The notes beneath the pieces were generated by a model that made no database searches, had not been told where the DNA came from, and worked only from the letters and a program-made list of their open reading frames with translations. A stretch of 64,000 bases of DNA, from positions 7,254,001-7,318,000 of the forward strand of contig NC_135240.1 of assembly GCF_947623445.1 (NCBI RefSeq). The letters run 5' to 3'. A program made the translations under genes and the position numbers. Below are positions 42,636 to 58,865 of the stretch, piece by piece; within the stretch, counting starts at the first letter, position 1; each line of letters starts with the position of its first letter. The stretch is from Clavelina lepadiformis. Lineage: Eukaryota; Chordata; Ascidiacea; Aplousobranchia; Clavelinidae.

Positions 42636-45600
42636 ATGGTAAGTTGCTTAACAATTTTGGTACTGTTGTAATACAGTTACTAGAAAATGTTAAAGCCCAT
42701 TTTTCTGTTTTTGTTTAATTTCTTTCAACTTAAACATTAGCCTATCATGGCCTATACTTATTTTGCATTGCTAGGAATCAAATGGAGTCATTCCTCAATT
42801 TCGACCACTTTATTCTGTGAAAGTTCCAAATGCGGCTAAAAATGGAGAAGTTGTGGAATTCTTTGTAGAAACTTTAAAGGTCTTCCAGAACATGTTATTG
42901 TTGGTGTATAAGACCATTCAACCAGTGGTTCCCAACCTTTTTTAAAACGTGAAAACTGGATCTGCTGGGCTAAACTGCCAAATAAATAGCTCAACTTTGT
43001 TAACTCGGTAGTGTAGCGATTGAAATGGTGTCAGACTTATATACAATTCAATCCAAGTGCAACATGGTGGTGCTACATTGCCAGACTGTTTTTGTATTGC
43101 TCTTGAGCAAGTATTAATGTATGAATGTTGCTTGCTTCTGGTCAATTCTTTTGGTAAACATTAACGAATTTGGGTAAAATTGCAAAAAAATAAAAAATAT
43201 AGAAAATACATCTATCAGAAGATGTTCATTGACCAACATAGTAACAGAGGCTTGAGCAGTAAGGTATCAATCAATTTTGCCTTGTTGTTTATTCTAAATC
43301 CGTGTGAACATGAAAGGGTTTGGCTTGCATTTTAATAAGTCTTGTGCATGCATGTGCGGAAGCTGAAACTTATCCAGCAAATTGGCACCTTTTTCTGTTT
43401 CTATATGTGGTACCTATACAGGTTTATCTGAACACCCATCTCATATCAATGTTTCTTGGAGTTGTGTTTATAAGTGAATGAACGATTAAAAGCAAGTTCA
43501 GTTAAGAACAAGTTCTGATATTTGTAGGATTTTATTTTGGGATTTTATTACTTCTGAAAACGCATCTTAAGGAATTTTTAAATTATTCGATTAATTTTTT
43601 TAAAAACAATGGATGGCAACAGAAAAGATGTTTTTGGTTTGGGGAATGTGGTTAAAAATAGTTACTGTAGTCAATTTGACAAATTTTATATCTTCTAAGT
43701 GGTAATAAAAGGGTCATTCCATGTCAAATCACCCAATGGGTTTAACCCCTACCTCTTCGATTTTGCTGAAATTTGGTATGTAGGGAGGTCTTAGCATAAT
43801 TAGCACAAATCTAAAATATTAGCTCAATCGGACCAGTGGTTTTAGAGATACAGGCCTTCGAATTTTCGAATTTTTGCAAAAACGGACGCGGCCGCCAAAT
43901 TTTAGGCCCTGATATTTTGGTAACCGGTGGACCAATTTTGATGAAACTGTTGTCATTGGAAAGGTAATTTCACAAGGAATCCAAATCTGTCATTCTTTTC
44001 TTGATAGGAGCAAGTTAAATGTGTGTGACCTTTTGACCTATTGTTTGACCTTGAATTTGACCTTGTGGATCACGTGACCTTGAAATTAAATTAAGTGCAA
44101 ATTATACCCTAAGATGTTACCTACAACATATAAAAAATCCAGAGATGTAATATTTTTGGTTTAATAATAAAATACACTTTAGTGGGCATGCCTGACCATA
44201 AAATGACCATTTTGAACCTTCTAATGCATTAATGTACACAAATACACTACAGGAGATATGCCATAGTTTAGTACAAATCCAAAACTTATAATCCTTATTC
44301 AAAGTATGATGTCATATTGTATTAACACTATAACAGGCTTTGCTCATATTAATTGACATATTTTAATTAATTAATCAGGCCTTCACGATGCTTTTCATTA
44401 AAATAATGCAAATTTACATAGGCTATACAAATCAATGTAAAAGTAGGCTATTAACAATATGATAATACTCCTGAAGTTAACATTTCCATTTTTTGCATAG
44501 TCCAGTTATTTTAACATTGTCAGGCTTGCCGATGCTGTACATCTGAGTGGAAAGTGTAAGAGATGGTGTGTTGATAACACAAAGGATGCTCTTCTTGTCA
44601 AACCAACATTTGTCTTCATCTCTAGGCCAATGAAAGAGCTTGGCGGGTCCATGGGGATGCATGAACTTTATACTGTAGTCCCCATGCTCGTCTGAAATAT
44701 CCTCCACCAGGCCAATCCATGGTTCGTTGTCATAAAGACAGCAGACATAGTTCTGTTCGGCAATCTCAATGTCAATCAGCACTTCCGATATTCTGTCATG
44801 TTCGGCATCCGCTGTGGCGGCTACCACAACAGGAGGATCCACTTGTGTACTCAATTTATACACCGAAAGATGCGTTTGCGAAAGTGGTACAAATCTGTGA
44901 AACTGAAGAGTTCCTTTAATAGTTGTAGCAATATCGAATCGATTTCTTAAGTCTGTGTCAACTTTTGTCACTTCTTCGGGTGGGACATTGAAGAATTTGA
45001 TTCCTGGAATCCTTTCAACACAGAATTCCATGATGGCTTCTATTGTCAGAATCGGATCCGTGTAGGGTCTCTGGAGACTTGCTTTGGTCAGGAGTCTCTT
45101 TACAGTTCCGCCAATACCATCACAAGCACTTTTGCCATGGGATGTGGCAAAGAAGTTCCATTCGGCGTCCAGGCCAAAGTCCTTCTGGTGGTTGCAAAGA
45201 TTGATGAAGTTATGTTTGTTCTTATATTGCCCAGCACAGCCATCCGTGAAGTAGTGGACTTTCTTTACTACTGGGAACTCCTTCTTAATGTACTCAATCA
45301 CCACTTGCTGGAAAGCATACACAGTCGAGGTTGAATGTTCCTTTACGTCACTTACTACACAAATGTTCCGGTGTTCTAACGTACTATCTTCATCATTGAG
45401 TTTGCAGTAGGCAACGAATGGATGCAGTGTGGCTTGTTTATTTTCCCAATGAAAACTTTGGATCTCATCCTGAACAACATATGAGTAATTTTCAGCGAAA
45501 TCCCCCTGTAGAATAATCTCTTCCAATGGTTTCATTGATGATTTAAGGTCCTTCATGTATGTACTTTGAGATTTTGCGGGGAAACTGTGGCGGGTGAGTT

Positions 45601-48600
45601 TTAATAGCTGCGAGGAAAAGTTATCTATGAAGTCTTCTTTTGATTCCGTAATAGTGGTAAGTTTCGTGCGATCGGTGCTAATCCATTGCTGGTATGTCAC
45701 GTCCTCAACATCGTTCAGTTCTTCACAGTTTTTAAGGTGATCGATGAGCCCTTCACGACCAAGGCAGTCCTTACAGTGACCCATCATACACTTTTCGTTC
45801 TCTGTAGAGCACACACAGAATTTCATAAGGTCACGAACAGAAGATTTCAAACACCCTTCTGCCATCAACTTAGGGTTCTGGTGGTACTTGCAGACACAGA
45901 CAGAGTGAGTTCCTGATGATCCAGCAAGTACACACCACTTGGGACGCAAAGCCGCGAAAGACGAGAATCCAATCTTCTTTTCGGGATAAGTTTCTTTCCA
46001 GGAAGAATGCAGTTCCTTAAGATTGGATAATACCAGTCGCTTCTGATGTTGAACTTTCTCACCATTCTTATTTCGAACACTAACCGAATCTTTCATTCCA
46101 GGACACATTCGACTATTTTCATCACATTCATAAAAACCACAGACATCATTTTTAAGTTCTTCTGACAGCGTTTTGCCCTTGTTCTTATCACATATTCCCA
46201 AAATCCCCTTTTGCTTCTTCACATCACGACTTTTCTTCACTAGGTAGTTAGTGGCTCCAAATTCCTTCATAGTTCTATCTATTGTAAATGGTGACAATGT
46301 TAGTATCTGTACTCGTTCTTGGTAGCTCTGAGACTGTACAAACTTTTCTTTTAACTGTGTCATTATGCTTTGGTAACGTTGGTAATCCTTTGCGCATTTT
46401 TCATCATCAGAATCTGAACTGTATAACGGAACTTTGTACGAAAGTTCTAGCTTCCTCTTCAATGTCCGGATTGCTGATGCAAGTTTTTGTTTACCTTTAG
46501 TTATTTTAGTGGAGGTTGGCATGTGAGCGGTTTTAATTGGGGTTTCATCAAGATCAACTAATGTTATATTGAGATTGACAAACGAGCTATTCACATTTTC
46601 AGGTGAACTATTGTCGACATCCATGTGCATTGCACGCGTTTCTTCGGTTTCATCTTGTTTTGATTGAACCTTTTTCCTTTGAAGAATCATTAAACACTCT
46701 AAACACACTTTAACACCAGGTACTACAACACATGGAGGATCACTTAGTTTCTCAAACATATCCAAACTAACGACACGTAATGATTTAGTCCTAGATTTCC
46801 CCGGATGTTTATTCGTCGGATCGCAACAACGCAACGCAGCAACCTCACAAACAAAGCTGGCTTCTTTTAGACTAACTAGTCTGCTAGTGATCCACTCCGC
46901 TCGCAAGCTGTTAAGGTCTGGATAAACTCTCACATATCTCCTGTACTGTTTAAGTGTAAACATATTGTGTATATTATGCATTAGAACGTTCAAAATGGTC
47001 ATTTTATGGTCAGGCATGCCCACTAAAGTGTATTTTATTAATAAACCAAAAATATTACATCTCTGGATTTTTTATATGTTGTAGGTAACATCTTGGGGTA
47101 TAATTTGCACTTAATTTAATTTCAAGGTCACGTGATCCACAAGGTCAAATTCAAGGTCAAACAATAGGTCAAAAGGTCACACACATTTAACTTGCTCCTA
47201 TCAAGAAAAGAATGACAGATTTGGATTCCTTGTGAAATTACCTTTCCAATGTAACCAGTTTCATCAAAATTGGTCCACCGGTTACCAAAATATCAGGGCC
47301 TAAAATTTGGCGACCGCGTCCGTTTTTGCAAAAATTCGAAAATTCGAAGGCCTATATCTCTAAAACCACTGGTCCGATTGAGCTAATATTTTGGATTTGT
47401 ACTAATTATGCTAAGACCTCCCTCTATACCAAATTTAAGCAAAATCGAAGAGGTAGGGGTTAAGATTTCACTTTTTTTTGGGTGATTTGACATGGAATGA
47501 CCCAAAAGTCAAATGATAATTTCATCCCAATTTATTTTGAGAAATGTGTAGAAAATGTTGGGAAGAGAATTATTATTAGCATGAGGTGAACCCATATACA
47601 ATTCATACAGTTTGCTACTTCTGGTCAGTTTATAGAAGTTCTTTATGTCAATTTTTGTAGGACGGAGATGAAAGAGCATTAGTGGTTATTCGTGTTCATG
47701 ATGACTTTGTGTGGCTTTTGCATTGCTTGAAGACCCAAGACAACGTTACCGGAATAATTGTAGGTTTTCACAGAAGTTGGCCGTTGGAATTGTAATTAGT
47801 TGAACCAGTTGTTATTCAACATTAGTATATTTAATAAAATTTATTGTCTCTAAATAATTATCAGTTTCCTCCGCTACCATCAGCACCGAGTACAAGTGTG
47901 CAAGCCGCTGAAAAGCGTACCAAGAAGCAAATGGGGGTTAACTCTAATGTACTGGTCGGTGACGATTATGGAGAGAACTTTCGGGCGTACGAAAAGTTCT
48001 TGACTCTCTGCATCACACATCCACGTCTTGGACACTCAAATGTTTTACAAAGATTTTTATTGGAAAAAGAGGTGACGCATTTAAAAAAAATCATCATGCC
48101 AATTTTGAGATTTGTTTTTTATTAGATTTGTGATTTCTGACTTGTATAACTTGCATAATGCATACATATAAGTTTTGAAATTTTATTTCTAGGCTCCGGC
48201 CAAGGTAAAAATACGTCAGGGAATCCTTGGAACGTTAACAAAAGCTGTTGACGATATACGTACCATGAACTTCAAAGACAGCGACAATGATTTTCATAAC
48301 GCAAGGATAAACAATAATGAGAATGTGAAACATATGAAAGAAGCGGCTTCAGCATACCAGAAATACATTGACTGCGAACACAGTAAGTTCACGGTTTTTT
48401 GAATATGATAACAATATTATTAAAACGTTGTAAATACACTTGGCAATTTGTTTGAAAATATCAACTCTTCAAGTTTATGTCTAAAATATCCACAATTCAT
48501 AATTCTTCTTCATCTGTTTATTTAAGGATTATCTAGTGCATATTCCGAAATCCAAAAAGCGTTAACTCAAATTGTGTCTGATCAAGGAAATAAAATGAAA

Positions 48601-51600
48601 ATGGAAGAGTAAGAGAAAACTATGATATTAATTTATTAGTAAATCTGTTACACTTTTAGACTTAATCTTGCATTTCCAATGACAAAGAATGACAGTTTAC
48701 TATATTGAAATAGTGAATACTTTAAAACATAAATCAATCATATCAACGTACAGAGATAGTAGTGGTGCATGCTTACTTCAAGACATTCTTGTCTGTTGCC
48801 TGTAGACCTTATGATGATGTCATTTGTTGCTGCTGTAGCAATGAAATTAATTGGTGGGTAATAGCAGCTTAATTGCTTGCAGGTTGTGTGAAGTCATGTG
48901 GCGCGCCGCCGAGCATGCCAGTGAAATGAGTCACGTCAATGCAACTAATCGTCAAAGAACGATGGGTGCAACATTGAAACTCTATGCTGGGTACACCCAG
49001 TCCCAGCAGGAAATGCTAAATAAACGTGTTTTTAAACTTATGGAACTAGAAAAGGCCAAGAAGAACTATGAAAAGGCTAAACCTCAGAAAAAGCAGCAGG
49101 TAAATTTCTTAATTTTATATTGAACGGTGCATAAAAATTTGCATTGTGAAGACCATGCTGAAACCCTGAATCATTATAACAACTGTACTTTGGTTGTAGT
49201 ATAGTAGTAGATAATAACTTAAACACTTTATAATTTCTTTTATTCATGTAATTTTCTGTTTCTACTTTTGTAGAAACTGATAACACTGGTCAACACGATT
49301 TTTTGCGCCAAGGATTTGACAACGATTTTAGGCTAATTTGGGGTCGCTGATTTCGAAAATGACAATCATTTTTCTCAATTGGCTCTAGTTTTTGAGATAT
49401 TTAGATTTTTCACTTTCGGAAATTCCACTCATGTCACACATAACGCAATACTAGGTTTCAGGTCTCAGCCAACTGTAATACACTTGGACAATAGTCAGTA
49501 ATATAGTCAAATGCTTAAATATCACAATACTAAATCAATCAGTGCGTAATAAGTCTGTTTTTATATATAATTGATGGTGAATCGCTTTTTGTATGACTTT
49601 ATTTTATGGCGGACGTCAGTACAATCGTGCTGAAAACACCAACATTAGTCTGCCATCAAGTTTTTCTCCCATCTGCCCTGGTATCATTCTTCCATCACCT
49701 TTATGTCCTGATGAAATCTCTCCCCTTGTTCTTCAGAAAAATTACTAAATTTGTCAGGAAATTTTTCCAAATGGGTATGGAGATAGTGCACTTAAATGCT
49801 CATATTTGCCCCTACCTGTTGGTAGGTCTCGAGCATATTTTCTACCAGCTCTGCATAGTTTTCTGCCTTGTGGTTTCCAAAAAAGTTCTTCACCACAGAC
49901 AGAAAACAAGACCAAGCTTGGAATTCCACATTGTTCATGCTTGTTCCAAATTTGAGTCATTGATTAATTTGCGAATTTGAGGCCCATCAAAAAGGCCTGC
50001 TTTCAAATTTTCGGTTGTCAGTTTTGGAAAACATCTACAAAAACATTTAAAACAATCACCATCTTTATATAAAGCCTTTACAAATTGTTTCATGAGCCCC
50101 AGCCTGACATAGAGAGGTGGTAAAATGATCTTCTTTCTTTGAAACAAAGGTTCTTTAATCACATTTGCTTTGCCTACTTCCACATTATCTCTTGTGAACC
50201 ATACCTTTTTTACCCTGTGCTGGGTCTTTGCCCTGCTGTCCCACAAGCACATAAAGCAGGGATACTTAGTGTATCCACTTTGCTGTCCAAGCAAAAAGTT
50301 CACCATCTTTAAGTCAACACAAATTGACCACTGGTGCTCGGCATAGCAGATCTTCCGTAAAACTAATTTCACATTTTCATACTCTTCTTTCAGTTTTGTT
50401 GAATGAGCAATTGGCAGAGATGAATAGCAGTTGCCATTATGCAACAGAATGCATTTTAAACTTCTGGTAGAGCTGTCTATAAACAATCGCCAGTCTTCTT
50501 GTTTGTAGTCTCGGACTTTCATTTTGAGGAGAAATCCAGTTATATCATTTCAATATTCAAGGTCTGCATCTTGACTGAAGAAGGGAAAGAGTTCCTCTTC
50601 TCCAGTCCGGTAAGCTGTTATCTTTGCATCCGCCTTTAGACAGTTCTTCTCCTTCAGTCTGGAAGCTAAAACCTCAGATGCTTCTTTTGATAAGTTAAAG
50701 TCTCTGATAAGATCATTAAGCTCCTTTTGTGTGAACTGTTCGGGAGTGAAAGAGCTTTCTTCGTAAATGTTTCATTTCATGCTTTTCCTCAATATCTGTT
50801 TCTTGCAAATCTGGTACTGATGTAAACGCAGGTAAGGGAATGCTTTTGCAGTGCTCAACCGGTCGCCTTACTAACTAGTTTTAAGAAAAGTAACGTTTTA
50901 TTCACCTGCAACTCGAAAGAAGCAAACTTGATCAAGGTCAGCGATTCTTTCCTTCAGTGCATTAAATATTTCAAGAAATCATGAGTAATTAACGCATTTT
51001 TATCAGTACATCGACAAATAAGGCAGGTCTATTTAATGAGAATCACAATTGAGTCTATTCTGAGGTTTCAACCTAAACACAAACGATGACGTGATAGCTA
51101 AAACACTGTCACTAATGCCAGAAATAGTGAAAAATGCTGAAATAAAGAAAATAACCATATCTCGAAAACTAGAACCAATTCAGCAAAACCAATGCCAAAT
51201 TCGGAATCAGCGACCTCAAATTACCCTAAATCCGTTGAAACATCGCTGGCACCTCAAAAAAAAATTTTTTTTGTTGGGCAGTGTAATGCTTTGTGAGCAT
51301 TTTTTACAGCAGTAATACACAAGAATCAAGACAAGTATAATATTTAACTTATACTTCATGCGATTAGGCTGAAAATATCATGAGGAACATTGAAAAAGAA
51401 TTGTCAGATATGACAGCGTTGGCGAAGCCTGAAATGGAGAGACACAATCGTCAGCGCATCCTTGCAATGCAGTCTGCTTTGACTCAAGTTGCTGATTCAG
51501 AGGTAACGTTTAGCATGTTTTTTTTCTTTATTGTTGTTGTGTCATAGTTTCTAGCCTGTTTTTTGTGTAAATGAGCAAAGAAGAACCGCGTTACAGTCAA

Positions 51601-52559: not shown

Positions 52560-54416
52560 TCACTGAGGTTGCGAGAAATACGAACCCGGTGAGGCATTAA
52601 TGCAAAAGAAACACATGCCAAAAAGACGCAGGATATAATCCCGTATAGGGTGAGATTCTTGAGTTTGATTCTGCCTTGCCGAGATGAAGTTGCTCTTCGA
52701 AGTTGATTTCTTGATAGGTTGATCTTTGACGATTGCCCCAATCCTGCTTTCATATGTTGATGAGAAGGAAAAGTCAAAGTTATTCTCCGAAGTGTCCAAA
52801 TTTACTGCTGTGCTGCTTTCTTCCCAGTCCTTTACGTCATCTTTTTCAGCCGTGTTAGCAGTGACTACCGTATTAGCAGAATTCGTCAGGTCTACGTTTA
52901 GATCAGGTTTTGTTTCATCGTGCTTGAAGTCGAGCCTGCTTTGAATAGAGTTGTTGTGGTCTATCCCAAATTCTTTGGTTTCTGTCGATGTGATAAGATT
53001 TTCTTCATTTGCCGTTGAAAACAGACTTCCCTTTGAAACATAATCTTCTTCATTCCATCCATCATCAAATGCAGCAATCTTTTTCTCACTATTATCATCA
53101 CTTGCAAAGTTATCATCTAAAACGACATCCCATTGCCTTAATGATTCTGAGTACCGAGGTCTTGTGTCTTCTTTCACAGATAGATGCCTTTCACTTAATG
53201 GAACGTCAGCAGAAACATCTTGAGTTACTTCACGTTTTGTGATGTTTAAAGCCACAAGGTCTTCAGGAGTATCGTTCAAATCATGGCAACCATCTTTTTT
53301 TGGGGGGGTTGTGCCTTGAGATTTGTCAGCATTAAGATAACCTTTATTAAGGTCTTTTTTATCGTTTCCATCTGGAATTGTAATCTCCGTTACAATATCA
53401 AGCGAAGGCCGTTTCTTTACCGGTTTTCTCAATTTCATGAAAAAGTTTTCAAGTTCTTCTTGGTTACAGCTCAGATGTTTCTTCATTCGTTTAGAAACTT
53501 TTGGTTTCGGCATTGTCGCCATGGATGCTTCTTCTAATTCTACACCAACGTATGCATCGTCAGGTAAGCGATCATGTTCCAGTTTGCTGTCATTTGCTTC
53601 GGTCAATTCAGCATTGGTTTGGGCATCGGCGTCAGCACTTTGATTTCCGGCGCTTGTATTAGGACCTATGTCGTTTTCACAGTCACTTGAATTCTCGGTG
53701 TTAAGTTCTTCACTGTATGTGATATTATCAAGTTCGTCAAAAACATCCTGCAACGTGTACTCTTCGGATAGACTTTCCTCTTCGGATTCTTCGGAAGAAT
53801 AACTTTGATACTCCTCGGAAGAAGTGCTGATATTTTCCTGAAGCTGGTGTGGCATTCCATCCTGGAAAAAAGAGCGCTTCTCGCTAATGGGGTCCCGGAA
53901 GCTGACCTTGTTTTTTTTACGCGGAGGATGTTGCGAAGATCCACTGCTCCTCCGGGAGTGCTTCCTGCAAGGTTTCATAGGCGATGGAGGAAATTTTTCC
54001 AAGCTATATTCTGTTACTGATAGCCGGCCTGCTGATTGGTTGGGAATTTCTTCATCTTGACAAGAATTGTTACCGTTAAAAGCGCCGTTGGAAGCGCTAA
54101 AATCTGTAATTTTATCAAAGTTTGAATCGTTTGATCCGATACTTTCAATAGATTCTTCCAAAAACTTATCAAAGTCGATGTCCGATTCTGGTGACGAACT
54201 AACGTCAGAGTTTCCTTCGGTTTGTATCACGTCATCCATTTCCCTCCCGGCAGCTTCAAGCATGTTACCATTCAAATCTTCGCTCCAAGGGACTGCCTCC
54301 GACCCATTAAAGTTTGTCGGGCTGCTCGATAACTCTATTTCGACACACCACGGCCTCAGATCCTTTCGTCTACTCATCATGTTTCTAAATAATTTTGCCT
54401 GCAGTTCGCATAACAC
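52560..54416 (-). CDS. unrecognised acidic, Ser-rich protein, 618 aa
   Basis: A single long open frame, start MLCELQAKLFRNMMSRRKDLRPW at 54416; a second Met pair about 12 residues in could be the real start. Composition is strongly Asp/Glu/Ser-rich and probably disordered, with acidic runs near residues 205-235. A short basic island HSRRSSGSS..PPRKKNKVSFRDP near 155-180 contains KVSF, the RVxF form of a PP1-docking motif, next to nuclear-localisation-like lysines. No folded domain recognised. An overlapping minus-strand frame (52529-52777) encodes a 22-residue hydrophobic segment flanked by arginines, so the true C-terminus is uncertain. The intronless form contrasts with the neighbours; a missed small intron is possible. 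The VDE-like gene lies upstream on the same strand, its stop codon about 340 bp away. Confidence 0.65.
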   Translation of the reverse strand: MLCELQAKLFRNMMSRRKDLRPWCVEIELSSSPTNFNGSEAVPWSEDLNGNMLEAAGREMDDVIQTEGNSDVSSSPESDIDFDKFLEESIESIGSNDSNFDKITDFSASNGAFNGNNSCQDEEIPNQSAGRLSVTEYSLEKFPPSPMKPCRKHSRRSSGSSQHPPRKKNKVSFRDPISEKRSFFQDGMPHQLQENISTSSEEYQSYSSEESEEESLSEEYTLQDVFDELDNITYSEELNTENSSDCENDIGPNTSAGNQSADADAQTNAELTEANDSKLEHDRLPDDAYVGVELEEASMATMPKPKVSKRMKKHLSCNQEELENFFMKLRKPVKKRPSLDIVTEITIPDGNDKKDLNKGYLNADKSQGTTPPKKDGCHDLNDTPEDLVALNITKREVTQDVSADVPLSERHLSVKEDTRPRYSESLRQWDVVLDDNFASDDNSEKKIAAFDDGWNEEDYVSKGSLFSTANEENLITSTETKEFGIDHNNSIQSRLDFKHDETKPDLNVDLTNSANTVVTANTAEKDDVKDWEESSTAVNLDTSENNFDFSFSSTYESRIGAIVKDQPIKKSTSKSNFISARQNQTQESHPIRDYILRLFGMCFFCINASPGSYFSQPQ

Positions 54417-54693
54417 CTCATCAGGTTATTTCGACATTCTACAGAGAAAAGGCGTTTTTTCGCCTGGTCGGTTTTTATCGCAATATAAAATATATGGTTA
54501 TCGCTGTGCCGCATATTCATATAGTACCAAAAACAAACGGAAGCGTTGACATAAAATTACGTCGTTTCCTTTTCTCTGTAATATTATCCGATTTAGCTTG
54601 TAAAAGGGCCATTCGCAGGCTGTAAACGTCATGAGACGTCATGTTGAATAAATTATATGACAAGCAAGAATCGTTCATTAAAGGTCGGTTGTT

Positions 54694-54751: not shown

Positions 54752-56429
54752 CTAGGCCAAGCAGTTGCCGTGATCGACTGGACACCACTCCTTTAAATTT
54801 AAGCCAGCGTTTGTCGCAGATTGACTGATGCGGTCGTAGTCAAGTTGATTGAGTGACTTGGTCTTTGAGTACAGAACTCCACCTTCATAAAACCAGTAAT
54901 CACCTCCCCCAGTTGGCATTTTTCCGCAGTAGTACACCAACGTAAATTTGTTCTCTTCCTGAAGGCACATTTTGTCGGATAAGTAAGTAGAAATCTTCAC
55001 AATTGAAGGGTTCGAATTGGATTATTATTTGTGAGGTTAAATTCAGCGTAATCATGCTCACGTGATCAATGATCAACCAGTCGTCTTCCAGAGTGCTTCC
55101 GTAGTCGTAAGACGAAAGATGGATTAAGCTGGGGTCATCACCATCGGGAACAAGAGTTGATTCTTGTTGCTTAATGAATAAATAAATGAATAAGAATCAG
55201 TAGAAGTCAAATTTTATATACAAAGACATAACGGTAGCTATAAACAGTTGGACGAGTAACCCAACTTACAAGCTTCTTCATAACACCCTTGTCGGTCATG
55301 GCTTGATACGACATGACGGCATCTATACTTCCGTCCTGATTTACAGCTCCAAATGAAGTCACTTGGCACGGGAAGCAATCGTAGGTGGGGTTAAGTCCTA
55401 GCAGGACATTCCATTCCCCCTATTAATGTGTCAAAGGCAAATAAACTAAACTAGATTGTATAAACCCACCTCTTAGGTGCCTAATGTTGTGTAGCCTATC
55501 TATAGCTTGAACTTTTAACGTGAATAACAAGAAATAAATTGATATAACTTACAACATGTTATAAGAAGATGTTGTACACATATAAGTAGTATGGGATAAT
55601 GAGTACGTTCGATATACGCTATAGAAATCAAACTCAATCATCTGTGTAAAATAATCCAACTTGTACGCAACTGTTAAGGACTTAAACTGAAATGTTGAAT
55701 CCGTTTGATCCGGAATCGAACACTGAACGGGAGGATCCTGTGACGGCATAATGATACAGGCATGCTCAGTGGACGCACAGTTCAAAAAGTCATCAAGGAT
55801 ATCATTGCCTTTATAGGTTATTATACAAAACACATTTTACATTATTTTGACTTCATTAACACAAATGTTTGTGTAAATGAATTAGTTCTACTTAATTTAG
55901 TATAGGTTACAGTAAAAGGTTTCCTGGATAAAATGTCGGTTAATACGTCAGAACAGCCAAGGCTTAGCTGTTACGTTTTCTCTGTGCTCTCCCGCCTATC
56001 AGATACACTTTAAGTCGCTAAAATTGTATTATCTTTCAAAGTATTGTATCAGGATATACCGTAATTAATCATGCAATGCATTATGCACGATTGATCCTTG
56101 CAAGGGGCCACACACAATGATGCTCTCATGCAGTCCATGTCGGCCATGCAAGCACCGAGTTCATTTGTGCAGTGTTCAAACAGACAAGTAATATCACTGC
56201 TTCCTGGGTGACTTTCCATTAACTAATAATTTATGAAAGTTGATGAAATATGCATTTATTTACTAACTATTAACAATTTCTACCAGGTAAAGTGTTGTAG
56301 TGGAGATTACCGTGCTATCATCTATAGGTTATGACTTACCGCGGTTAGTAGAAATTTTTCTGAAGAGGCGTGCACATGGTCGAAGAGAGCAGCCATTATA
56401 GCGATTGAAATAACTCGCAATATAACCAT
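54752..56429 (-). CDS. secreted violaxanthin-de-epoxidase-like protein, 6 exons
   Basis: Exons 56340-56429, 56060-56223, 55618-55808, 55270-55419, 55062-55169, 54752-54994; about 314 aa. Residues 1-22 (MVILRVISIAIMAALFDHVHAS) look like a cleaved signal peptide. Next is a Cys-rich domain with the VDE spacing (CLFEHCTNE, LGACMADMDCM, LCVAPC, CIMHCM, FLNCASTEHAC), then a lipocalin-type domain opening GEWNVLLGLNPTYDCFPCQ, cf. plant GKWYITSGLNPTFDTFDCQ. Later come LEDDWLIIDH and FTLVYYCGKMPTGGGDYWFYEGGVLYSKT, cf. plant QDDWYII and [23 protein letters not shown]. The Asp of DDW and the Tyr pair of VYY, which lie where plant active-site residues have been proposed, are kept. The Glu-rich plant C-terminal tail is absent. 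In plants VDE reduces epoxy-carotenoids using ascorbate; the substrate here is unknown. Exon 2 carries an apparent one-base frame slip near 56160, since both sides match the family in different frames. Confidence 0.82.
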
Positions 56430-57179: not shown

Positions 57180-57821
57180 TCAGTTCAAATCTGGAGTCAA
57201 AGTAGTCAAACCCCTGCCAAAGAAGATGTCGGTTTTGCCATGTGGGTCATAACCTGCGGTATCCTTTCCGTTGATTTCGCACGTTACATCAATGTCAGTG
57301 ACTTGAAAGTCGTCTAACAGTTGCATTGATCTGGGACGAACAAATGTTGATTCCTTTTGATACTGCACGCCCGTATTTAATGACTGTTTCTTAACCTTCA
57401 CCTTCCGTCGACGTATTGCAATCATCACAGAAATAGCAATGATTGCTGCCGCCACAAAGCAAGCTATTGCAAAAAGGATTATGTTGCCACTATGACTAAA
57501 GAAATTTGTCCCCAAAGTCGAAGTACTCATTTCGCCGCCCTTTTCTGTGAGAGATGTTGCCATGTTGACAGTGTTGGATTGGCGGAATGGAGAGCTTAAC
57601 GTTCCACCGCCATCAGTGAGCCTATATGTCTTAAGCCCTGGTTTCAACGTCGTTTGCTCACCCGTGTGAGGTGGGCTGCTACTGGATGAAGAAATCTGGG
57701 CAACGGACGAGAAGGACGAAACCTCTGTTTCAGGGGCGGTAACATCCACCGTTGTAGACCTAATTTTCGCTGTGCTTTCCAGCCACAGCCGCACTGTTGC
57801 GGTTTTCATTTGTACCGTCAT
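57180..57821 (-). CDS. single-pass membrane protein, 213-aa ORF (possibly a 3' exon)
   Basis: An uninterrupted frame with three parts. About 110 residues are rich in Ser, Thr and Pro (SSFSSVAQISSSSSSPP and similar), mucin-like. A clear membrane segment follows, NIILFAIACFVAAAIIAISVMIA (about 113-135), with a basic stop-transfer IRRRKVKVKK. A 70-residue cytoplasmic tail contains STFVRPRSMQLLDDF and ends TTLTPDLN. No signal peptide is seen at the Met used (57821), so either this is a type III protein or an upstream signal-bearing exon was not found; the frame stays open a further 16 codons upstream. No homologue recognised. Same strand as the VDE-like gene, 750 bp upstream of it. Confidence 0.6.
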   Translation of the reverse strand: MTVQMKTATVRLWLESTAKIRSTTVDVTAPETEVSSFSSVAQISSSSSSPPHTGEQTTLKPGLKTYRLTDGGGTLSSPFRQSNTVNMATSLTEKGGEMSTSTLGTNFFSHSGNIILFAIACFVAAAIIAISVMIAIRRRKVKVKKQSLNTGVQYQKESTFVRPRSMQLLDDFQVTDIDVTCEINGKDTAGYDPHGKTDIFFGRGLTTLTPDLN

Positions 57822-58865
57822 AATTACTGGTTTAATTCCTCTTTCCGTTATAGGATGTCCGCTTACAAGTTACAACTGACTTTATCAGATAAGAACTTTT
57901 ATATTATTCTACTTTTCAAACCATAAACTTTCCAATAACCTGAGTATATTGTTATTAGTTTTTGCCTTCACATTATCGCCAACCCATTACCAGTTGCGTT
58001 TCAGCAGTTTCAAAACTCCGGAAACTTAAAATCGCCCACATTAGTGTTACGTCACGCTGACGTTAAGTGTGATATATCGAGCCCCGGTGGAAGGCCATCT
58101 TTAAGAATTTAACCATTGTTAGAATGGGCTTAAATCAACAGATTTGTGCTATGCGTATCGCTGTTGGTTTTAATTCAATAAATTATACGCCGATTCAATT
58201 GTTACGTTTGCTGTTTACTCGCCCAGACTTCAGTCTGATGTGTAAGATCTTTATGTGTGATTGTATTTTGCTATTCTGTACTCCATGAAAAATTGATCAT
58301 GATCAATCAATGTATTGCAAATATAACTTATAGATCTTATTTCACGCATTTTAGGCAAAATATTGTTATCAAAGCCCCCAGGGGAAAAAGTAAGTTACTT
58401 CACGTCATTTCTCCATCAAAATAAAAGTAACCAAGGGTTTTCGTTAATGTCAACTTTAATGACATTTCCAATTATCGATTATTCTATTCTACAATTCTAC
58501 TATTCTACAAATTAGTTTCTTTGAAACATGTTTTAAATCAGTTTTGTTCACAAGAATAACAGCTAACGTAAAAAGTTTTTCTTTTGTACTTGTGTAGTTA
58601 TGTCATAAACACTTTTCATTGATTTCTTACATCGAATTATTACTGCACAACCCCTGAGGAATAAGTACGCACTTTTGCAGATAACCCAAGAGAGCGTCAT
58701 ATATACTCCTCATGTATTCTTTTTGCTTTCTGCATGTCCAATGTCAAGTTGATGGGCATTCACCGTATATATAAAGGTCTGCATATGTGCAGCGAGCTCA
58801 GGGTGCACAGGTATTTGTTTGCGTCATACGTGCTGCAGGTTTACAAGCAGAGGTCTACTACCATC
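57822..58865. other. divergent intergenic region
   Basis: Between the minus-strand membrane-protein frame and the plus-strand GABA-A-type gene. No gene recognised. An in-frame Met at 58734 precedes the chosen GABA-A start by 44 codons, but the added residues would bury the signal peptide. Confidence 0.4.

Follow-up and report, generated by a model that had tools for sequence, protein, structure and literature searches.

A violaxanthin de-epoxidase-type gene with retained catalytic residues in the genome of the sea squirt Clavelina lepadiformis

Violaxanthin de-epoxidase (VDE) and its relatives VDL and VDR are treated as proteins of photosynthetic eukaryotes in a 2026 review, which calls the origin of the enzyme open (PMC13181403). 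Mutating D177 or Y198 fully inactivates Arabidopsis VDE (AtVDE). W179 and F123 are proposed violaxanthin contacts, and a hydrogen bond connects D114 with Y198 when the plant enzyme is closed. VDE is fully inhibited by DTT. VDL1 converts violaxanthin to neoxanthin, which is a tautomerization, and the VDRs keep the fold, with their substrate unknown (PMC13181403).

VDE-type sequences of animals had already been reported before Clavelina. Coesel et al. described one oyster EST in 2008 and suspected algal contamination (PMC2483416). The Manila clam genome paper of 2017 reported a VDE gene family in that clam alone among four molluscs, and an antioxidant role was proposed (PMC5499747). In our full-text search of a literature collection largely outside the subscription journals, none of the listed titles and openings of abstracts concerned a tunicate VDE or a test of the function of an animal VDE. 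Tunicates and bivalves obtain fucoxanthin by eating diatoms and peridinin by eating dinoflagellates, and in these animals epoxy groups are cleaved and allenic bonds are turned into acetylenic ones (PMC6949322, PMC3093257). Fucoxanthin is converted in them to halocynthiaxanthin and mytiloxanthin (PMC3093257), and mytiloxanthin is reportedly made by a pinacol-like rearrangement (PMC4882567). A 2011 review states that the enzymes and genes of animal carotenoid metabolism were not clarified (PMC3093257).

We analysed 64,000 nucleotides of Clavelina lepadiformis DNA, positions 7254001-7318000 of chromosome 1 (the window). A six-exon gene lies on its minus strand at 54752-56429, which is the exact span from ATG to stop in a splice model matched to the public protein. 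The joined exons make 855 bases and encode 284 residues, equal letter for letter to the protein of LOC143455799. NCBI labels this protein "uncharacterized protein", and its UniRef name is VDE lipocalin domain-containing. The exons and the main active-site segments are as follows.

56340..56429, minus strand: exon 1, with the start codon and the likely signal peptide (residues 1-21); donor gtaagt.
56060..56222, minus strand: exon 2, the bulk of the Cys-rich domain (C43, C48, C55, C61, C67, C71, C76, C80).
55672..55808, minus strand: exon 3, which completes the Cys-rich domain (C95, C102) and continues through the linker into the lipocalin domain; weak donor gttgcg.
55270..55419, minus strand: exon 4, with the lipocalin motif GEW and GLNPTYDCFPCQ.
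55363..55398, minus strand: GLNPTYDCFPCQ, in which T142, D144, C148 and Q149 correspond to AtVDE T112, D114, C118 and Q119; P147 stands at D117.
55062..55169, minus strand: exon 5, which contains DDW.
55077..55085, minus strand: DDW, in which D209 corresponds to the catalytic D177 of AtVDE and W211 to W179.
54752..54958, minus strand: exon 6, with VYYC, EGGVLY, the C-terminus carrying C275 and C282, and the stop codon, without a Glu-rich tail.
54929..54931, minus strand: Y226, corresponding to the catalytic Y198 of AtVDE.

The public protein served to place the joint between exon 3 and exon 4. A second and stronger donor, gtaagt, stands at 55552 past the end of exon 3; its use would add 119 bases (55553-55671) and change the frame in which exon 4 is read. 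We rejected a model in which exon 3 ended at this donor, since the frame broke before exon 4 and the product had 324 residues, about 40 of them extra. Alternative splicing at 55552 into a truncated Cys-rich protein is possible.

All five introns are of the GT...AG type, 100-252 bases long, with 29-36% GC versus 45.5% in the coding sequence. Four other open frames in the window have 41-47% GC and 39-49% GC3; the coding GC falls inside the first range, and the GC3 of 49.1% is just over the second. The locus lies at about 7.31 Mb on chromosome 1 (28,789,166 bases) of a Hi-C assembly. The published genome, built from HiFi reads (117-fold) and Hi-C data, totals 210.1 Mb, and its chromosome 1 measures 28.79 Mb (PMC10884593). 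When the 209-Mb assembly was searched and the best candidates alone were scored, the profile PF07137 gave three matches and the LOC143455799 protein six, all at this locus, indicating one recognisable copy. None of 14 control genomes had a PF07137 match. A second public contig (ENA, 1962 bases) carries exon 5 unchanged, and by eye the translation of its intron 5 has three different residues; it may represent natural variation or another haplotype of the locus.

Other open frames of the window, all on the minus strand, were inspected as well. The frame at 29504-30124 matches the N-terminal domain of adenylyl cyclase (PF16214, E 2.8e-11) and belongs to an ordinary animal gene. The frames at 44480-47071 (864 residues) and 49938-50549 (204 residues) look transposon-derived by eye and had no Pfam match at E<=0.1. 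The VDE-type gene is followed immediately downstream, on its own strand, by an acidic, Ser-rich frame of 621 residues (52563-54425), for which Pfam likewise gave nothing at E<=0.1. Directly upstream lies a Ser/Thr-rich frame of 229 residues (57183-57869); by eye it likely has a transmembrane stretch, and it had no Pfam match above the cut-off. Signs of a carotenoid pathway were absent from the eight neighbouring frames scanned, out of nine listed with at least 150 residues each.

The gene had been proposed, from the letters of the DNA, to encode a secreted VDE-like protein, and profile searches bore out the family assignment. Pfam PF07137 (VDE) matched residues 41-278 over profile positions 2-241 of 242, hence over both domains, scoring 161.5 bits where the cut-off is 25.7, with an E value of 3e-47. 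No other Pfam family, the lipocalin family included, was listed at E<=1. In the PDB, the sole significant relative was the lipocalin domain of Arabidopsis VDE (3cqn/3cqr, E 7.5e-11), and the next match had an E value of 0.2. BLASTP against Arabidopsis VDE gave 63 identical residues of 247 (26%, E 6e-24). The Arabidopsis reference was a working copy of 253 residues, compared with the stretch printed for 3cqn and with the residues named in the literature. The local alignment score was 226, which was reached by none of 500 plain shuffles (maximum 56) and by none of 500 shuffles with fixed cysteines (maximum 88). Each domain alone also scored above its own 500 shuffles (lipocalin part 144, maximum 59; Cys-rich part 95, maximum 50). 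The match to the VDE family exceeds chance. An AlphaFold2 model built from the single sequence had a mean pLDDT of 35.6, too low to be used for the fold. Judged by sequence, the LOC143455799 protein is a member of the VDE superfamily and not a canonical chloroplast VDE; the missing Glu-rich tail was the ground for rejecting the canonical label.

The N-terminus, MVILRVISIAIMAALFDHVHA followed by SS, resembles a signal peptide (residues 1-21) by hydropathy. Signal-peptide cleavage sites are located by the -3/-1 rule, and cleavage after HVHA is our guess on that rule. The protein is probably secreted. The Cys-rich domain (residues 43-102) contains ten cysteines with spacings of 5, 7, 6, 6, 4, 5, 4, 15 and 7, versus 5, 7, 6, 6, 4, 9, 4, 15 and 7 for the ten conserved cysteines of the Arabidopsis reference. 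All ten are kept and eight of the nine spacings are identical; the loop between the sixth and seventh cysteine is four residues shorter. The automatic alignment placed this gap later and set nine of the ten against a cysteine. The inhibition of VDE by DTT, together with the kept cysteines, fits an oxidising secretory route.

The motifs quoted in the sequence-only reading were all found in the lipocalin part (GLNPTYDCFPCQ at residues 138-149, DDW at 209-211, VYY at 224-226), as were GEW, VYYC and EGGVLY. Four of the 16 cysteines, C114, C145, C227 and C275, have no Arabidopsis counterpart when C148 is paired with C118 and C282 with the C-terminal cysteine, as in the alignment. C145 directly follows D144, which corresponds to D114, and C227 directly follows Y226, which corresponds to Y198. 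If C145 and C227 formed a disulfide, it would hold both sides of the pocket together. The protein ends with C282-L-A, and its last 60 residues contain 3% Glu; the Glu-rich C-terminal domain, about 100 residues in plant VDE, is absent. The same reading had stated that the gene reproduces the plant and algal VDE architecture. The plan of a Cys-rich and a lipocalin domain behind a secretory-looking N-terminus stood, and "reproduces" overstates the likeness, as the Glu-rich domain and six of seven pH-switch residues are missing.

We then compared residues with roles described in PMC13181403, using lists that were chosen after the alignment was seen and entered by hand. The substrate, ascorbate and catalytic set had nine positions (T112, D114, Q119, F123, Q153, F155, D177, W179, Y198). 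The pH and conformational set had seven (D98, D117, H121, R138, H168, D206, Y214); position 135 was left out, as the Arabidopsis reference does not have the named residue there. Seven of the nine substrate, ascorbate and catalytic residues were identical, against 26% identity overall (binomial P 0.0015, with the lists picked after alignment). D114, Q119, D177, W179 and Y198 are all kept, as D144, Q149, D209, W211 and Y226, and F123 is kept as F153; Q153 and F155 are not conserved. In contrast, only Y214 was identical among the seven pH-switch residues. D98, D117, H121, H168 and D206 are replaced by S128, P147, T151, S199 and G234, and R138 is not conserved either. The contrast of 7/9 with 1/7 gave a Fisher P of 0.04, for lists picked after alignment and with several pH residues varying among species. 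Four of the residues D98, D117, H121, H168 and D206 are not kept in every species (PMC13181403).

These features suggest a secreted, disulfide-stabilised enzyme of the VDE superfamily that would open 5,6-epoxides of dietary xanthophylls. We hold this reading, in which secretion, substrate, reaction and tissue are all inferred, with middling confidence. The barrel would bind a 5,6-epoxy-xanthophyll from eaten microalgae, and candidate ligands are fucoxanthinol or halocynthiaxanthin, peridinin derivatives and diadinoxanthin. D209 would protonate the epoxide oxygen and W211 and F153 would hold the polyene, while Y226, D144 and Q149 would keep the site thought to bind ascorbate in plant VDE. The outcome could be a reductive de-epoxidation with ascorbate, as in VDE. 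It could also be a redox-neutral rearrangement of the opened epoxide, like that of VDL1 or a pinacol-like step towards mytiloxanthin. To our knowledge, VDL1 is the closest enzymatic precedent for a non-reductive opening in the VDE family. Acid-driven opening of the thylakoid-lumen type should be dispensable and the protein should be active without a strong pH drop, because D117, H121, the Glu-rich tail and most of the acid switch are gone and the protein is probably secreted. The gut or digestive gland would be the expected tissue. Points against this reading are the single recognisable copy, the scanned neighbouring frames without signs of a carotenoid pathway, the changes at Q153, F155, R138 and H168, and the Manila clam VDE family, for which a general antioxidant role was proposed rather than pigment metabolism (PMC5499747).

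An exon-by-exon search of the Clavelina genome found nine matches to the carotenoid-oxygenase profile PF03055 on two contigs, and a general carotenoid metabolism is likely present. The same method found no exon of PF04030 (ALO/GULO, gulonolactone-oxidase type), so Clavelina may lack its own ascorbate synthesis by this route. A reductive reaction might therefore need dietary ascorbate; the absence mildly favours either a rearrangement or the use of ascorbate from the diet. A broader proposal is that filter feeders kept, or acquired long ago, their own branch of the VDE superfamily. This branch would be the missing 5,6-epoxide-opening enzyme of tunicates and bivalves, acting for example in a pinacol-like conversion of halocynthiaxanthin to mytiloxanthin, with the acid switch replaced by a fixed site, perhaps through C145-C227. 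We offer it tentatively and consider it doubtful.

Whether the gene belongs to the animal at all has to be considered, because algal contamination was what Coesel et al. suspected for the oyster EST (PMC2483416). The Clavelina locus lies at 7.31 Mb inside a 28.79-Mb Hi-C chromosome covered by 117-fold HiFi reads, the same window contains an adenylyl-cyclase exon, and the 1962-base ENA contig carries the identical exon 5 with a slightly different intron translation. Contamination or an assembly artefact is practically negligible on this evidence, and the view of the sequence-only reading that introns and animal neighbours speak against a contaminant was upheld by the five GT-AG introns, the position on chromosome 1 and the adenylyl-cyclase exon. 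A recent acquisition of the whole gene from an eaten alga, still near its donor, would agree with a family otherwise described from photosynthetic eukaryotes (PMC13181403). The five introns, the GC within and the GC3 just above the range of four frames of the window, and the bivalve VDE-type sequences (PMC2483416, PMC5499747) all argue against it. So do protein searches that needed shared 5-residue words: they showed no close relative of any origin, and their matches were the gene itself and a read-through fragment on the 1962-base ENA contig. One of these searches used the earlier 324-residue model and one used residues 126-250 of the LOC143455799 protein. No relatives were seen among phage records, viral contigs and GTDB genome contigs with short back-translated stretches, a weak test of absence; four viral DNA matches were dismissed, since they lay outside long open frames and did not resemble VDE by eye. 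We regard a recent acquisition as very improbable; an old transfer of a VDE-type gene may have taken place.

Two further explanations accept an animal gene and differ about its role. The protein could be a non-catalytic secreted carrier whose VDE-type barrel transports a dietary carotenoid or another lipophile without chemistry. The central domain of VDE is homologous to lipocalins, which are mostly passive carriers (PMC13181403), and six of the seven pH-switch residues are lost. However, the retention of D177 and Y198 and of the ascorbate-site residues D114 and Q119 at 26% identity is unexpected for a pure carrier, and we think this explanation unlikely. The protein could also be an enzyme whose substrate is not a carotenoid, such as an animal-lipid epoxide or that of a dietary terpenoid. 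The changes at F155 and Q153, the 26% identity to AtVDE and the VDRs, which keep the fold with an unknown substrate (PMC13181403), are consistent with this. But W179 and F123, the proposed violaxanthin contacts, are kept, and epoxy-xanthophylls are regular in the tunicate diet (PMC6949322, PMC3093257); a different substrate thus seems rather improbable to us. The suggestion that the protein acts on dietary carotenoids is plausible, and opening of their epoxides is the reading we prefer.

In conclusion, the Clavelina gene sits on an animal chromosome, has introns and retains the catalytic residues, which weighs against the view of 2008 that an animal VDE match must be algal contamination. It is a concrete candidate for the xanthophyll-epoxide chemistry of animals, which has been known from pigments since at least 1984 (PMC3093257). 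It also offers a natural comparison for the VDE active site in a protein that has lost most of the pH switch.

With plant and algal VDE (PDB 3cqn/3cqr), the Clavelina protein has in common the Cys-rich and lipocalin domains, the ten cysteines, and D177, W179, Y198, D114, Q119, T112 and F123. It differs by a likely secretory signal in place of the plastid transit peptide, by lacking the Glu-rich tail, by Pro for D117 and Thr for H121, by a shorter loop between the sixth and seventh cysteine and by four unmatched cysteines, and the identity is 26%. Crustacyanin-type animal lipocalins bind a carotenoid in a lipocalin barrel and have no Cys-rich domain; the Clavelina protein differs from them in that the Pfam search listed no lipocalin family for it at E<=1. 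VDL1 and VDL2 of stramenopiles, haptophytes and alveolates, compared by description, share the superfamily, Y198 and a Glu-rich tail that is less conserved or absent, but have Glu at the position of D177 where the Clavelina protein has Asp (D209) (PMC13181403). The VDRs, also compared by description, share the Cys-rich and lipocalin plan and Y198, and again have Glu at D177 rather than Asp (PMC13181403). According to Coesel et al. 2008, the VDRs lack the PF07137 signature (PMC2483416), whereas the Clavelina protein matches it strongly. The Crassostrea virginica "VDL" EST and the Ruditapes philippinarum VDE family, known here by description, are likewise VDE-type reports from filter-feeding animals.
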